Source of the DNA: Marinilactibacillus sp. Marseille-P9653
GTDB taxonomy: Bacteria > Bacillota > Bacilli > Lactobacillales > Carnobacteriaceae_A
Direction: 5' to 3'
Length of the DNA stretch: 64,000 bases
NCBI RefSeq assembly: GCF_916618885.1
Contig: NZ_CAKAKH010000001.1
Location: 434,001 to 498,000 of the forward strand
A program made the position numbers and the translations under genes. How positions within the stretch are numbered: the stretch's first letter is position 1; every line of letters begins with the position of its first letter. The notes under the pieces were generated by a model. It did not search any database, was not told where the DNA came from, and saw only the letters and a list, made by a program, of their open reading frames with translations. Positions 9,313-18,622 of this stretch are shown here, piece by piece.

Positions 9313-10608
9313 ATGAAAGAACTGTATCGTAAGTCTCCATCTTTGATGGAGCTCGTTGTAAGTAGAAAGAATCTATCGACAGCTGCCACGAAAGTTAGAC
9401 GTAATAAAGGAGCAGCTGGGATAGACGGTATGACAGTATGGGAAGTCGAGGAACATATTGAAGAAATTTATCTGCCATTGAGGCAGAAACTCCTTAATGA
9501 AACTTATAAACCTCAACCCGTTAAACGAGTTGAAATTCCTAAGCCAAACGGAGATAAACGTAAACTCGGTATTCCTTGCGTTCGTGACCGTGTTGTACAA
9601 CAAGCTATCAAACAAGTGATTGAACCACTGATTGACCCGCACTTTCTTCCGCAAAGTCATGGATTCCGCCCGAATAAAGGAACCCATACAGCATTGAAGC
9701 AATGTGTAGATTATTACGAAGAAGGATATAAATTCGTGGTCGATTGTGACTTGAAACAATGTTTCGATACATTAAGTCATGATAAACTGATGTACCATCT
9801 TGAAACCTTTATTCAAGATAAAGCGATTTTAAAGGTTGTCCGTAAGTTTTTGATGAGTGGTGTCATAGACCTGTCTGGCGAATTCGTAGAAAGTAAAACA
9901 GGCGCACCGCAAGGTGGCGTACTCTCGCCCCTTCTCAGCAATGTTTACTTACATGAACTGGACAAAGAACTAGACCGTCGTGGTCATCGATTTGTTCGTT
10001 ACGCGGATGACTTCGTCATCTATGTGAAATCTAAACGAGCAGGTGAACGTGTGATACAAAGTGTGACACAATTCATCGAGAAAGATTTGAAACTAATCGT
10101 TAACAAAGATAAGAGTAAAGTCGGGTCTCCTACTCGTTTAAAGTTCTTGAGCTGTCTGATAAGGAAAGTGAATGGAACCTGTCGTTTTATCCCTACAAAA
10201 TCAGCCAAACAGAAATTTAAACGAACACTCAAACGACTAACGAGTCGTAAACGTTCCGGAACCTTTGAAGTTATTATAAAGGAAATCAATCAAGTGACTC
10301 GAGGGTGGATTGGCTATTTTGGTCTTGGATTTATCAAAATGTTCATAAAACGGATAGAACAATGGTTACAACATAGAATCAGACAGCTGATACTCAAAAG
10401 ATGGAAGAAAAGCAAAACGAAAATAACGAAGTTATTCAGCTATGGATTGGATATGGATAGTGCTAGAAGAATCGGATTTTCCCGCAAGAAGTACTGGAGG
10501 CTATCCATGACGCCTGAAGTTCATCAGGCACTTACAACGAAAAGACTCCACCATTGGGGCTTAGTCTCTTTAAGCTCCTTGGTAGAGTCAGCTTACGCAA
10601 GGTATTGA
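9313..10608 (+). CDS. ltrA: Group II intron reverse transcriptase/maturase
   Basis: 431 residues. The reverse transcriptase fingers and palm contain GAAGIDGMT, HGFRPNKGTHTAL, VVDCDLKQCFDTL, GAPQGGVLSPLLSN and the catalytic YADD at residues 230-233. A thumb/maturase X domain follows (TRGWIGYFGLGFIK) and the C-terminus ends in SLVESAYARY. There is no HNH endonuclease domain, as expected for class C introns, which use hairpin targets. The frame is complete and all catalytic residues are present, so the element may still be active. Confidence 0.93.
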   Translation: MKELYRKSPSLMELVVSRKNLSTAATKVRRNKGAAGIDGMTVWEVEEHIEEIYLPLRQKLLNETYKPQPVKRVEIPKPNGDKRKLGIPCVRDRVVQQAIKQVIEPLIDPHFLPQSHGFRPNKGTHTALKQCVDYYEEGYKFVVDCDLKQCFDTLSHDKLMYHLETFIQDKAILKVVRKFLMSGVIDLSGEFVESKTGAPQGGVLSPLLSNVYLHELDKELDRRGHRFVRYADDFVIYVKSKRAGERVIQSVTQFIEKDLKLIVNKDKSKVGSPTRLKFLSCLIRKVNGTCRFIPTKSAKQKFKRTLKRLTSRKRSGTFEVIIKEINQVTRGWIGYFGLGFIKMFIKRIEQWLQHRIRQLILKRWKKSKTKITKLFSYGLDMDSARRIGFSRKKYWRLSMTPEVHQALTTKRLHHWGLVSLSSLVESAYARY

Positions 10609-14260: not shown

Positions 14261-14289
14261 TTGACAACTTCTGAGGAACACTGTAAGAT
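14261..14289 (+). promoter_or_regulatory. Promoter of the tryptophan locus
   Basis: TTGACA at 14261-14266, a 17-bp spacer and TAAGAT at 14284-14289. The predicted start is near 14296, about 15 bases before the leader-peptide ribosome site. Confidence 0.8.
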
Positions 14290-14394: not shown

Positions 14395-14524
14395 ATATGA
14401 GTAGTCTCATAGATACAACGTTTAGAACTCATTCTAAATTTTGTATCTATGCGACTTATTTCTCGAGAAATTCTAGATAAGTAACCACATAGATATCACG
14501 ATATCTATGTGGTTTTGTTTTTTT
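14387..14524 (+). promoter_or_regulatory. Trp attenuator: competing hairpins and first terminator
   Basis: Segment 1 (14387-14401, overlapping the peptide stop codon) pairs with segment 2 (14406-14420): CGTTGTA/TACAACG and TATGAG/CTCATA around a GA/GA internal loop. Segment 2 also pairs with segment 3 (14441-14451): CATAGATACAA/TTGTATCTATG, topped by TTTAGAA/TTCTAAA. Segment 3 can instead pair 8 bp with the left arm of the terminator (CATAGATA at 14488-14495). The terminator is ACCACATAGATAT/ATATCTATGTGGT followed by TTTGTTTTTTT. Because 2:3 does not overlap the terminator, the likely antiterminator is 3 with the terminator arm. Pairing is seen directly; the mechanism is inferred. Confidence 0.78.
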
Positions 14525-14573
14525 AAAAGGCAATTTCCACTACTGAACCAAAGTGTGGAGATTGCCTTTTTTT
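14525..14573 (+). terminator. Second terminator in the trp leader
   Basis: AAAAGGCAATTTCCAC pairs with GTGGAGATTGCCTTTT (one G-U), followed by more T. It starts directly after the U-tract of the first terminator. I see no obvious alternative pairing that would open it. Confidence 0.85.
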
Positions 14574-14638
14574 GTGGCTTATCTGTGAAAGCACTGTCTA
14601 ATTAAAAGCATACATAAGTATATAAGGAGCTGATGCAG

Positions 14639-14674
14639 ATGATATCTGACTGGGAATGGAAAAGAACGGGCTGA
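14639..14674 (+). CDS. Second Trp-rich minigene (11 residues, MISDWEWKRTG)
   Basis: ATG at 14639 lies 9 bases after AAGGAG (14624-14629). The 11-codon frame has TGG at 14651 and 14657 and stops at TGA 14672, 46 bases before the trpX start. It lies beyond both terminators. It may be a second Trp-sensing peptide acting on translation of trpX, but chance cannot be excluded for so short a frame. Confidence 0.5.
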   Translation: MISDWEWKRTG

Positions 14675-14720
14675 ACAGTAAACGAACCTAAAAATGATGA
14701 ACGAGAGAGGAAACGTAAAA

Positions 14721-15764
14721 ATGAAAAGAAGAGGCATGCTCGTAACGTTTGCACTAATATTTGCAGTATTAATTATAGGATTCTTTTTCCCGAGTGGACA
14801 AAGCACTAACCGAACAGCTTCAAATAATAGTGAAACAGCAACAGAAACACCTGAAGAGCAATTCACGGTCGGCTTACTACAAACGACAAGTCACCCGTCG
14901 CTAGATGAAATTCGTGAAGGAACGATTCAAGGGTTAGCGGATAATGGCTACGTTGAAGGCGAAAACCTAACAATCAACTTCCAGAATGCACAAGGGGATC
15001 AGAACTTGATGAATACCATGGCAAGTTCCATTGTGAGTGATGGCGCAGATATTGTGATTGGTATCGGAACACCCGCTAGTCAGGCGCTGACAAATGCAAC
15101 AAGTGAAATTCCTGTCATAATGGCTGCTGTCTCAGACCCGATCGGTTCAGGCCTAGTGACTTCTGAGGAGGAACCAGGTGGAAACGTTACAGGCGTAAAG
15201 AACCAGGCACCTGTTGAAGAGCAGATCAAATTAATGACAGACATTTTACCAGACGTGCAAACGGTTGGTATGCTTTACAGTTCTGGTGAGGATAATGCCC
15301 GAGCAGAAGCAGAGCGCGCGCAAGTCGCAATTGAAGATGCTGGACTAGACTTAGAAACGTATACTGTTTCAAACACAAATGAGATTCAGCAAATGATCGC
15401 AACGATGTCCAGAGAAGTTGACGTGATTTACTTGCCGACAGATAATACGATCGCTAGTGCATTCAACACAGTTGTTAGCGAAGCGGATCGTTATAATATG
15501 CCACTCATTCCGACGGTTGATTTGATGATCGCACAAGGTGGACTGGCAACGATTGGGATTAGTCAAGTTCAACTAGGTGTTGATTCAGGAAGAATGGCCG
15601 CAGAAGTGTTAGGTGGTCAAGATACAGCAACGTTCCCGGTTTACATCGTAGAAGGCGGAGAGCAGCTGATCAACGTAGAAAAAGCAGAGAAGATCGGCGT
15701 AACGATTCCAGAAGATGTTTTAGAAAACAGTAGAATTATCGAACCAGAAGAGGGAGGTCAATAA
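14721..15764 (+). CDS. trpX: Tryptophan ABC transporter, substrate-binding protein
   Basis: 347 residues starting at ATG 14721 (AGAGAGG upstream; the ATG at 14694 has no ribosome site). The N-terminus MKRRGMLV plus a long hydrophobic core is a membrane anchor or signal. The mature part is an ABC_sub_bind (type-1 periplasmic fold) protein with FTVGLLQTTSHPSLD, GTPASQALTNATSEIP and AAVSDPIGSGLV. Family members bind aromatic amino acids; TrpX of streptococci serves tryptophan. The two-Trp leader peptide upstream strongly supports that substrate here. Confidence 0.85.
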   Translation: MKRRGMLVTFALIFAVLIIGFFFPSGQSTNRTASNNSETATETPEEQFTVGLLQTTSHPSLDEIREGTIQGLADNGYVEGENLTINFQNAQGDQNLMNTMASSIVSDGADIVIGIGTPASQALTNATSEIPVIMAAVSDPIGSGLVTSEEEPGGNVTGVKNQAPVEEQIKLMTDILPDVQTVGMLYSSGEDNARAEAERAQVAIEDAGLDLETYTVSNTNEIQQMIATMSREVDVIYLPTDNTIASAFNTVVSEADRYNMPLIPTVDLMIAQGGLATIGISQVQLGVDSGRMAAEVLGGQDTATFPVYIVEGGEQLINVEKAEKIGVTIPEDVLENSRIIEPEEGGQ

Positions 15765-15765
15765 G

Positions 15766-16647
15766 ATGATTATATCAGCTATCGCATCAGGATTTTTATG
15801 GGCAGTACTCGGAATAGGCCTATATTTAACGTACCGTATTTTGAAATTTCCAGATTTGACAACAGAAGGCTCATTCCCATTAGGCGCTGCAGTTGCCGTG
15901 ACTGCAATCGTATCTGGTGTTCCACCTATTTTATCGATCATCTTAGCGATTTTAGCAGGCATGTGTGCCGGACTAGCAACGGGACTCCTTTATACAAAAG
16001 GAAAAGTTCCTGTGATTCTAGCAGGGATCCTCGTGATGTCAGGGTTACATTCGGTTAACCTCTTCATTATGAAGCGACCAAACCTAAATTTGCTGAACCA
16101 AAGCCGACTATTTGATTATTTTCAAGGTTTACCGAATTATTATGACGTCGTCTTTATCGGAATCATCGTACTGGTTGTACTAATTAGCGTGATTCTGGCA
16201 TTCTTCTATACTAATCTCGGACAAGCCTTTATCGCAACCGGAGATAACGAAGATATGGCACGTTCCCTTGGCATTCGTACAGACAATATGAAAATTCTTG
16301 GCCTCGTCATCTCAAATGGGGTCATTGCTTTAGCCGGTGCGCTTGTCGCGCAAAACAACGGATATGCAGACGTTAATGGAGGAGCTGGCGTCATCGTTAT
16401 CGGTCTGGCTTCACTAATCATCGGAGAAGTGATGTTCAAGGATCTGAAACTAGGTGAGCGGTTGTGTACCATCGTAATCGGATCAGTCTTGTACCAATTA
16501 TTATTACTAGGCGTTATCCAGCTTGGTTTTGATACAACCTACATCCGTATCTTCAGCTCAGCGATCCTAGCAATTTGTTTAATGATTCCACAAATCAGAC
16601 GGACACTTGGACTAGGTACATTAATCGGGAAAGGGGAAAAAGCATGA
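15766..16647 (+). CDS. trpY: Tryptophan ABC transporter, permease
   Basis: 293 residues, almost entirely hydrophobic with about eight segments, of the BPD_transp_2 family. LTYRILKFPDLTTEGSFPLGA is the conserved N-terminal permease signature, and ATGDNEDMARSLGIR is the cytoplasmic coupling loop for the ATPase. It starts one base after the trpX stop codon and overlaps trpZ by four bases, so the three genes are translationally coupled. Confidence 0.85.
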   Translation: MIISAIASGFLWAVLGIGLYLTYRILKFPDLTTEGSFPLGAAVAVTAIVSGVPPILSIILAILAGMCAGLATGLLYTKGKVPVILAGILVMSGLHSVNLFIMKRPNLNLLNQSRLFDYFQGLPNYYDVVFIGIIVLVVLISVILAFFYTNLGQAFIATGDNEDMARSLGIRTDNMKILGLVISNGVIALAGALVAQNNGYADVNGGAGVIVIGLASLIIGEVMFKDLKLGERLCTIVIGSVLYQLLLLGVIQLGFDTTYIRIFSSAILAICLMIPQIRRTLGLGTLIGKGEKA

Positions 16648-17426
16648 GTACATTATTGAAACTAAAAGGTTTGACAAAAGTCATTACGAACCAGGCAGAT
16701 GAAGATAACCGAATATTGGACGGTGTGGATTTCACCTTGAACGAAGGCGAATTTGTCACTGTACTAGGCGGAAATGGCGCCGGTAAGTCAACTTTGTTCA
16801 ATAGTATTACCGGTTCAACAGAAACAACTGGTGGAACTGTCGAATTAAAAGGTAAAAACCTGACAAAGTGGAAAGAAGAAAAACGAGCAGGATTGATTTC
16901 AAGAGTGTTCCAGGATCCTAAAATGGGGACGGCACCGCGAATGACCGTAGCAGAGAATTTATTGTTGGCTAAACTACGTGGTGAAAGAAAAACACTGAAA
17001 TCTAGAAGCTTGAAAAAGAATAAAGCGTCTTTCGTAGAGATGTGTGCATCCATTGGAAATGGACTAGAAAAACAAATCGACGCACCTGCTGGTAATTTAT
17101 CGGGTGGACAGCGGCAATCGTTGAGTTTACTGATGGCAACAATGACGCGACCAGATTTGTTACTGCTGGATGAGCATACCGCAGCGCTTGACCCGAAAAC
17201 CTCTAAAAAACTGATGGAACTAACAGACCAGATCATTAAAGAAAAGCAATTGACGTGTATGATGATTACGCACCAAATGGAAGATGCGTTAGCGTACGGC
17301 AATCGTCTGATCGTTATGAAAGATGGAAAAATCACATTGGACTTAAACGAGAAAGAAAAAGAAAAAATGACTTTAAAAGACTTACTGAGATTATTTGAAG
17401 AAGAAAATCTGACGGCAGTACTTTAA
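16644..17426 (+). CDS. trpZ: Tryptophan ABC transporter, ATPase
   Basis: 260 residues starting at the ATG inside the ATGA overlap with trpY. Walker A is GGNGAGKST, the Q-loop is in SRVFQDPKMG, the signature is LSGGQRQ, Walker B is LLLLDEHTAALD and the H-loop is MITHQ. It powers uptake by TrpXY. A longer frame reaches back to 16575 but runs inside trpY and has no ribosome site. Confidence 0.87.
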   Translation: MSTLLKLKGLTKVITNQADEDNRILDGVDFTLNEGEFVTVLGGNGAGKSTLFNSITGSTETTGGTVELKGKNLTKWKEEKRAGLISRVFQDPKMGTAPRMTVAENLLLAKLRGERKTLKSRSLKKNKASFVEMCASIGNGLEKQIDAPAGNLSGGQRQSLSLLMATMTRPDLLLLDEHTAALDPKTSKKLMELTDQIIKEKQLTCMMITHQMEDALAYGNRLIVMKDGKITLDLNEKEKEKMTLKDLLRLFEEENLTAVL

Positions 17427-17449
17427 ACATAAAAAGGAGAGTGGATCAA

Positions 17450-18622
17450 ATGGCGACAAATCAAGCAGGATATTTTGGAAACTACGGTGGAAGTTTTGTA
17501 CCGCCAGCACTCAGTGAAGTGCTTAATCACTTAGCAGAAGAATTTGAGCACTACAAAGACGATGCAGACTTTAATAGAGAATTCAAAGAGATTTTAAAAG
17601 AGTACGTCGGAAGAGAGAATCCACTCACTTTTGCTTCAAGACTGACAGAAGCCTTTGACGGACCAAAAATTTACTTGAAACGAGAAGACTTGAACCACAC
17701 TGGGGCGCACAAAATCAATAATGTGATCGGCCAGATCTTACTCGCAAAACGCATGGGTGCGCACCGAATCATCGCAGAAACCGGCGCCGGCCAACATGGC
17801 GTTGCGACCGCTACAGCTTGCGCAATGTTTGGCATGGACTGCACCATCTACATGGGCAAACTGGATACTGAAAGGCAAGCGTTAAATGTCTTTCGCATGG
17901 AACTGTTGGGTGCAAAAGTCATACCAGTCGAAAAGGGGCAGGGAAGACTAAAAGACGCAGTAGATGTCGCTTTAGCGGATCTTGTAGAAAATTATGAGAA
18001 TACATTTTACCTATTGGGCTCGGCTGTTGGACCGCATCCATTCCCATCGATCGTCAGACATTTTCAGTCTGTGATTAGTGAGGAGTCGAAGCGTCAAATT
18101 ATCCAGCAAGATGGCAAGCTTCCGGCAGCGGTTATCGCGGTCGTTGGTGGCGGCAGTAATGCAATTGGCTCTTTCGCTCATTATATCGATGAAGAAGACG
18201 TGCGTTTGATTGGAGCGGAACCGGAAGAAGCAGCTACGATGGCACATGGAACGCCAGCGGAAATTCACGGCTTTAAAACGCTGGTGCTACAAGACGAGAA
18301 TGGCCACCCAGCACTAACGTACTCGATTGCGGCTGGGTTAGATTATCCAGGAATTGGGCCGGAACATAGCTATTTAAAAGAAAGCGGACGCGCAGAATAC
18401 TATACTGTGTCTAAAGAAGAAGTACTAGAAGCTTTCCAATTGCTAGCTTCAAAAGAAGGCATTGTACCGGCTTTGGAGAGTGCGCATGCAGTGGCGCTAG
18501 CGAAGAAACTGGCGCCAGAATTTGATAAGGAAGATTCTATTATCCTGACGATTTCAGGTCGCGGAGACAAAGATGTAGAACAAGTTCAGGATTTATTGAA
18601 GGCAATGCAAGATTCTAAATGA
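17450..18622 (+). CDS. trpB: Tryptophan synthase beta chain (no trpA nearby)
   Basis: 390 residues of the TrpB1 type. KREDLNHTGAHKINN carries the PLP lysine K88, ETGAGQHGVATA the dipole-binding loop and GGGSNAIG the phosphate loop. It condenses indole with L-serine. ATG 17450 is preferred over GTG 17441, because AAGGAGAG ends right at the GTG. It is 23 bp behind trpZ and the last gene of the operon. No trpA, trpC, trpD or trpE occurs in the window, so it may salvage external indole rather than complete de novo synthesis. Confidence 0.92.
   Translation: MATNQAGYFGNYGGSFVPPALSEVLNHLAEEFEHYKDDADFNREFKEILKEYVGRENPLTFASRLTEAFDGPKIYLKREDLNHTGAHKINNVIGQILLAKRMGAHRIIAETGAGQHGVATATACAMFGMDCTIYMGKLDTERQALNVFRMELLGAKVIPVEKGQGRLKDAVDVALADLVENYENTFYLLGSAVGPHPFPSIVRHFQSVISEESKRQIIQQDGKLPAAVIAVVGGGSNAIGSFAHYIDEEDVRLIGAEPEEAATMAHGTPAEIHGFKTLVLQDENGHPALTYSIAAGLDYPGIGPEHSYLKESGRAEYYTVSKEEVLEAFQLLASKEGIVPALESAHAVALAKKLAPEFDKEDSIILTISGRGDKDVEQVQDLLKAMQDSK

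Follow-up and report, generated by a model that had tools for sequence, protein, structure and literature searches.

A tryptophan minigene, a reading frame of eleven codons with two UGG codons and a strong ribosome binding site, stands between the transcription attenuator of the trpX leader and trpX itself in the 64,000-nucleotide stretch of Marinilactibacillus DNA that we analyzed (the window). The minigene is real and conserved, minigenes of its kind are associated with several genes of tryptophan starvation, and a ribosome stalled at its first Trp codon would leave the Shine-Dalgarno (SD) sequence of trpX free. Judged from sequence comparison, it probably serves as a translational sensor of Trp-tRNA charging that acts on trpX behind a transcription attenuator, in the manner of the leader of Bacillus rtpA. 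Sensors of this kind are already known from rtpA, and what is most likely new is trpX as the target.

A tryptophan minigene behind the trpX attenuator

The minigene reads ATG ATA TCT GAC TGG GAA TGG AAA AGA ACG GGC TGA (11 codons and a stop); its ATG occupies 14639-14641, UGG codons 5 and 7 lie at 14651-14653 and 14657-14659, and its TGA is at 14672-14674 (Table 1). Two Trp residues in eleven codons stand out in front of trpX because TrpX itself has none in 347 residues. The initial annotation had placed an 11-residue frame 46 bases before trpX and past both terminators, and the sequence together with a terminator scan bears this out: the minigene lies 3' of both hairpins, and a gap of 46 bases (14675-14720) separates its stop from the trpX ATG at 14721. 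A second in-frame ATG at 14633 is kept in some relatives but not all.

Table 1. Features of the trpX leader and the genes downstream of it, in window coordinates
Feature	Position	Strand	Basis
Promoter-like site of trpX leader, TTGACA, 17 nt, TAAGAT	14261..14289	+	consensus scan, predicted
First leader peptide MNFDSKQTVQLNMNWQSWRRSL, two Trp codons	14326..14394	+	sequence; conserved in relatives
RF04312 'trpB' leader attenuator, ending in terminator 1 (14483-14514)	14406..14524	+	cmscan 57.2 bits, E 3.5e-7
Second terminator-like hairpin and T-run	14526..14573	+	read directly; hairpin at same place in relatives
Minigene Shine-Dalgarno AAGGAG	14624..14629	+	sequence, conserved; 9 bases 5' of ATG
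Trp minigene MISDWEWKRTG	14639..14674	+	15/16 loci keep M-x-[SA]-D-W-[EDN]-W; rtpA-leader-like
trpX Shine-Dalgarno GAGAGG	14705..14710	+	sequence; conserved
trpX, tryptophan ABC transporter substrate-binding protein	14721..15764	+	NF041285, 405 bits, cutoff 390
Transporter permease gene (trpY position)	15766..16647	+	ORF; ABC-permease relatives only
Transporter ATPase gene (trpZ position)	16644..17426	+	ORF; ABC ATPase
trpB, tryptophan synthase beta subunit	17441..18622	+	TIGR00263, 560 bits

The first tier of the leader is an attenuator with a leader peptide of its own, which contains NWQSWRR and precedes the RF04312 motif. In the window this motif scores slightly below the gathering score of 59 bits in cmscan. 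Across the order, 211 of the 395 genomes have an RF04312 match and only 60 of these reach the gathering score; the family is probably under-called, since most of the matching genomes fall under that score. The T-box covariance model (RF00230) gave no match between 13900 and 15000 of the window. The site in the first row of Table 1 is the only plus-strand promoter-like site detected in the trpX leader, and the minigene would therefore be carried on the read-through transcript. A separate promoter for the minigene, which the initial annotation had offered as an option, found no counterpart among plus-strand promoter-like matches between terminator 2 and the minigene SD.

Several observations concern the surroundings of this leader and its RF04312 relatives. 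Most of the RF04312 leaders read have, 3' of terminator 1, another terminator-like hairpin whose sequence varies. Leaders resembling RF04312 also precede genes for TrpX-like paralogues (L136, L140, L146, L148), where the leader peptides are rich in Tyr and Phe rather than Trp (NAYYYSYFR, FNFSYFRRCL, FHYYYGYYR); these peptides suggest that codons were swapped so that the same attenuator responds to a different aromatic amino acid, and that the paralogues serve a different substrate. Two trpX leaders of family f9 (L154, L156) carry a leader peptide with NGWWR, and their hairpins match no Rfam family at gathering score. A gene for a group II intron reverse transcriptase/maturase lies about 4 kb upstream of the leader (9313-10608; TIGR04416, 404 bits).

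Close relatives keep the frame and both tryptophan codons

The genome of the window groups with Marinilactibacillus (L031-L034) and adjoins Alkalibacterium (L035-L045), which together give a set of 16 close relatives including the window. Among the trpX leaders read, M-x-[SA]-D-W-[EDN]-W (the S-D-W type) occurs in all of those from Marinilactibacillus and in 10 of 11 from Alkalibacterium. The W-x-W frame, whose persistence in close relatives the initial annotation had made decisive for its proposal, is thus present by alignment at 15 of the 16 loci with both UGG codons, and in these 15 leaders the SD and its 9-nt spacing are identical. Codon 2 is variable, as are all residues beyond the second Trp, and the stop ranges from about 55 bases 5' of trpX to inside trpX. 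A crude scan for SD-led frames with Trp in the first 12 codons recovers 10 of the 16 loci against 1.1 expected from dinucleotide shuffles.

The sole exception is L040 (Alkalibacterium sp. MB6), which has lost the minigene. Near the place of the minigene this genome has a remnant, ATG AAA AGT ACC TAC TAA, and its first leader peptide is changed (WQSWHRPVV).

A second type of minigene in further families

We read about 90 RF04312 loci downstream of the motif. In a second family (f2), a minigene with a K-R-W core (MKKRWR.., MEKKRWR..) occupies the same place before trpX, behind RF04312: 14 of 18 genomes whose loci were read have such an SD-led Trp minigene, differing from that of the window, with the peptides MEKKRWRFY, MKKKVTKRWRNK, MKRRWHSTHTEN, MRQWTSQRWQSK, MKSWIRRRWPSC.., MSFLFMKRWQYLEKTIQ and others. 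Another genus of the window's own family (L147) has MEEQRVKRWRPLL... In four other RF04312 families (f3, f5, f8, f9) the terminators are followed directly by trpX, with no minigene between them.

The same K-R-W minigene is found in a Streptococcus-like genus, where it lies in trpX leaders that have no RF04312 match and are headed by a T-box (RF00230, 97-116 bits). Every Streptococcus-like locus read that has the T-box sequence GGTGG[CT]ACCG directly before trpX carries it, and it is kept despite the insertion of about 200 bases between T-box and minigene, or of an element between minigene and trpX. Genera with no recognised Trp attenuator before trpX have no minigene. The K-R-W type accordingly extends to two families beyond that of the window, and within the latter to one additional genus, under two different first tiers, T-box and RF04312. 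Under a fixed definition of the minigene, 31 of 41 Streptococcus-like trpX loci have one compared with 2.0 in shuffles, and the f2 genera summed have 13 of 20 compared with 1.1; families in which reading had found none stay at chance level in the same test.

This excess over shuffles bears on the reading of the minigene as a functionless relic of attenuator duplication, or as a frame that arose by chance. Such a reading would accommodate the loss in L040 and the absence from several families that have the same first attenuator, both of which also count against a sensor. It is nevertheless scarcely credible in view of that excess, of the conserved frame and UGG codons, and of the recurrence of the minigene before rtpA and trpS (see below).

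The S-D-W and K-R-W types have nothing more in common than the SD, the start and Trp somewhere within codons 4-9, and the reading frame is kept whether the first Trp stands at codon 4, 5, 6, 8 or 9. We considered whether the S-D-W or K-R-W peptide itself might arrest the ribosome, for instance on sensing free Trp, like TnaC. Conservation of the residues ahead of Trp inside each clade speaks for such nascent-peptide arrest. Between the clades, however, these residues are of opposite charge (S-D and K-R) and Trp is the only one shared, as few as three to eight residues precede it, and a stall there would leave the trpX SD exposed and so would not repress; we regard arrest by the peptide as very improbable.

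Several other ways of accounting for these sequences were rejected. An internal AUG within CGATGGC could serve as a start, yet the second frame often reads Met-Ala-stop, and locus L217 has CGTTGG and no AUG. TGGC might be the T-box UGGC that pairs with the end of tRNA-Trp, yet the S-D-W type does not have it. A double-Trp pheromone (W-x-W, as in Rgg systems) was set aside for its wrong context, and a loose class-wide pattern for the K-R-W core proved too unspecific, with matches in 260 of 398 genomes.

RNA structure and codon context

Folding of the stretch from minigene to trpX, in single-sequence folds, is no better than that of shuffled sequences (z -0.5 to +2.3), and the gap between them is A/T-rich and unstructured. 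Pairing between the minigene and the ribosome site of trpX, a possibility raised in the initial annotation, was found neither in single-sequence nor in consensus folds. A site scan of the interval from minigene to trpX detected nothing like a terminator; with no terminator, folding at shuffle level and no conserved structure, the minigene does not look like a classical transcription attenuator. The consensus fold of the S-D-W type contains one 5-bp hairpin (-2.1 kcal/mol), which is the only conserved hairpin, and that of the K-R-W minigenes is empty.

Could the conserved stretch act as RNA or DNA, through this small hairpin (CAGAU-GNN-AUCUG) or as a binding site for protein or tRNA, with the peptide frame incidental? 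Its arms are paired in 93% of cells, and synonymous positions are conserved: Ser-Asp is written TCT GAC in the S-D-W type, with GAC in 15 of 15, and the Arg before Trp in K-R-W minigenes (e.g., L149, L163, L052, L131) is CGA in nearly all, although CGA encodes only 6% (f4) or 21% (f2) of the arginines of the trpX genes concerned. On the other side, the hairpin lacks covariation, with no pair showing a compensatory change and exceptions that simply break the pairing; L044 has lost it and retains K-S-D-W-E-W with a synonymous Ser codon; the K-R-W minigenes share no consensus structure; the frame survives changes of codon length, and one K-R-W locus, L217, uses CGT in place of CGA. Moreover, the 24-nt minigene core occurs a single time in the genome, even with three mismatches allowed, which led us to reject it as a genome-wide operator. 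Taken as a whole, a nucleic acid element of this sort appears quite improbable.

The codon after Trp in K-R-W minigenes always begins with C. The near-constant CGA before Trp and the C after it suggest that the immediate surroundings of the UGG codon may matter too.

Related minigenes before rtpA and trpS

For comparison with rtpA we used anti-TRAP (PF15777) loci. Most of those from one Bacillus-like genus have a T-box sequence and a terminator followed by an SD-led minigene whose fifth codon is Trp, and the rtpA leaders carry M-[DEY]-[DES]-[GD]-W after the Trp T-box (MYDGWWWHSR, MDDGWWCITDE, MEEGWPEWPHH.., MEEGWRNTC..). One rtpA branch has MESDWSRTNKQK.. and MESDWRRTENQ.., that is, the M-E-S-D-W start of Alkalibacterium trpX leaders. 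The rtpA leader L293 reads AAAGGAG-N9-ATG GAA TCT GAT TGG and the Alkalibacterium trpX leader L035 reads AAAGGAG-N9-ATG GAA TCT GAC TGG, and each of the two 9-nt spacers has an in-frame ATG six bases 5' of the start; the likeness is short, and may reflect convergence.

A strict pattern for the rtpA-type minigene gave 16 matches in 398 Bacilli genomes, compared with one for the reversed pattern. When the loci were read, eight of the 16 proved to lie in leaders of trpS, the gene for tryptophan--tRNA ligase, with a T-box sequence (L306, L310-L313, L317, L319, L320; TrpS identity confirmed for four of the eight) and one in an rtpA leader, and the remaining matches resemble chance or ordinary genes. 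The trpS minigenes, from other Bacilli, begin MEDGWWM.., MDDGWWI.., MEDGWWWLY.. or MDDGWWWR.., the last two with the starts MEDGWWW and MDDGWWW; in L317 the minigene continues in frame into TrpS.

Ribosome geometry and a model for trpX control

We placed ribosomes on these leaders on the assumption that the front edge lies 13 nt past the point where the A-site codon begins. In none of the 84 leaders measured does a ribosome stalled at the first Trp codon come closer to the target ATG than -24, which leaves the SD of the target free. A ribosome that has arrived at the stop has its front at -20 or past it in all 23 rtpA leaders, but in only 7 of 15 S-D-W and 8 of 46 K-R-W leaders of trpX. In the window, the first base of the stop is at -49 and the front at about -36, such that a ribosome finishing the minigene ends about 20 nt short of the trpX SD. 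A terminating ribosome thus does not cover the target SD there, and the occlusion geometry of rtpA is not reproduced because the minigene stop is too far from that SD.

From this arrangement we infer that the minigene is translated, that ribosomes stall in it and that TrpX output changes. Transcripts that pass the Trp-sensitive attenuator would reach the minigene, whose strong SD would recruit a ribosome. Under a shortage of charged tRNA-Trp, this ribosome would stall at one of the two UGG codons (5 or 7) with its front (~14664) well 5' of the trpX SD (14705), and trpX would be freely translated. When charged tRNA-Trp is plentiful, the minigene would be read to its stop, bringing ribosomes nearer the trpX start and lowering initiation there. 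Two properties fit a sensor of this kind poorly: the stop comes too early for rtpA occlusion in the window and in most trpX leaders, and the conservation of S-D (TCT GAC) and R (CGA) beside Trp is not required by simple codon hunger.

The main alternative to occlusion is protection of the mRNA, in which the minigene likewise senses Trp-tRNA charging and the stalled ribosome, near the 5' end and by the terminator hairpins, shields the read-through mRNA from degradation. Stop position would then not matter, and this reading would account for an unconserved stop beside a conserved SD, start and UGG, and sits well with the A/T-rich, unstructured gap before trpX. Against it, no nuclease site or processing was identified and the geometry retained by the rtpA leaders suits occlusion; we consider protection unlikely. 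A broader proposal, which we put forward tentatively and with some doubt, is that Trp-codon minigenes provide a general second tier of control for Trp-starvation genes of Bacilli (trpX, trpS, rtpA) behind different first-tier sensors, and that most trpX leaders act with the SD uncovered, through an effect of stalling or drop-off tuned by CGA-UGG or GAC-UGG. If true, these leaders would work by a different mechanism from the rtpA leader.

Comparison with known systems

Short Trp-containing open reading frames in which ribosome stalling sets downstream expression through transcription termination are well known from E. coli trpL and TnaC. The minigene of the window resembles them as a short Trp-containing frame and differs in that no terminator follows it. 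The Rfam 'trpB' motif RF04312 is the first-tier attenuator of the trpX leader and comes with a separate W-x-x-W leader peptide; its match stops at terminator 1 and leaves the minigene outside. A literature search for these peptides, or for a minigene before trpX, gave no match.

The closest counterpart is the rtpA leader, to which the initial annotation had likened the minigene and whose short sensor frame allows Bacillus to produce anti-TRAP when tryptophan is exhausted. Passages in two reports describe rtpA translation as responding to tRNA-dependent ribosome stalling (PMC11255114, PMC4027176). The two leaders share the same order of elements, namely a Trp attenuator, a terminator, a strong SD, a minigene with Trp at codon 5 and the target gene, and in both the residues after Trp and the stop vary. 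As in rtpA, the trpX minigene is a short SD-led frame with early Trp codons directly 5' of a Trp-starvation gene; it lies downstream of a Trp-responsive transcription attenuator (RF04312 in the window, a T-box in Streptococcus-like loci) and resembles rtpA leaders in sequence. The likeness therefore holds for the order, the codon-5 Trp and the M-E-S-D-W branch, and fails for the exact geometry of stop and SD, the window stop lying some 46 bases before the trpX start with the finishing ribosome short of the SD. The leaders differ, too, in target, a gene for a Trp importer instead of rtpA, and in first tier, a leader-peptide attenuator (RF04312) instead of a T-box. Double sensing of uncharged tRNA-Trp, in transcription and then in translation, was previously described for one small Bacillus regulator gene; the comparisons made here suggest that the same layout controls a Trp importer across several families of Lactobacillales, Streptococcus-like genomes among them, and trpS in other Bacilli. 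Natural variation in stop position, in the number of Trp codons and in the codon before Trp offers material for learning how translation of a gene is set by the minigene in front of it.

The trpXYZ operon of S. suis, the same target operon as in the window, has a 676-base leader with a T-box and Trp-dependent reporter activity, in a region that the study calls non-coding; the passages of it consulted name no leader peptide (PMC9382623). The Streptococcus-like loci described here combine a T-box with a K-R-W minigene, whereas the window has no T-box, and published trpX T-box reporters may therefore carry a second, unnoticed sensor.
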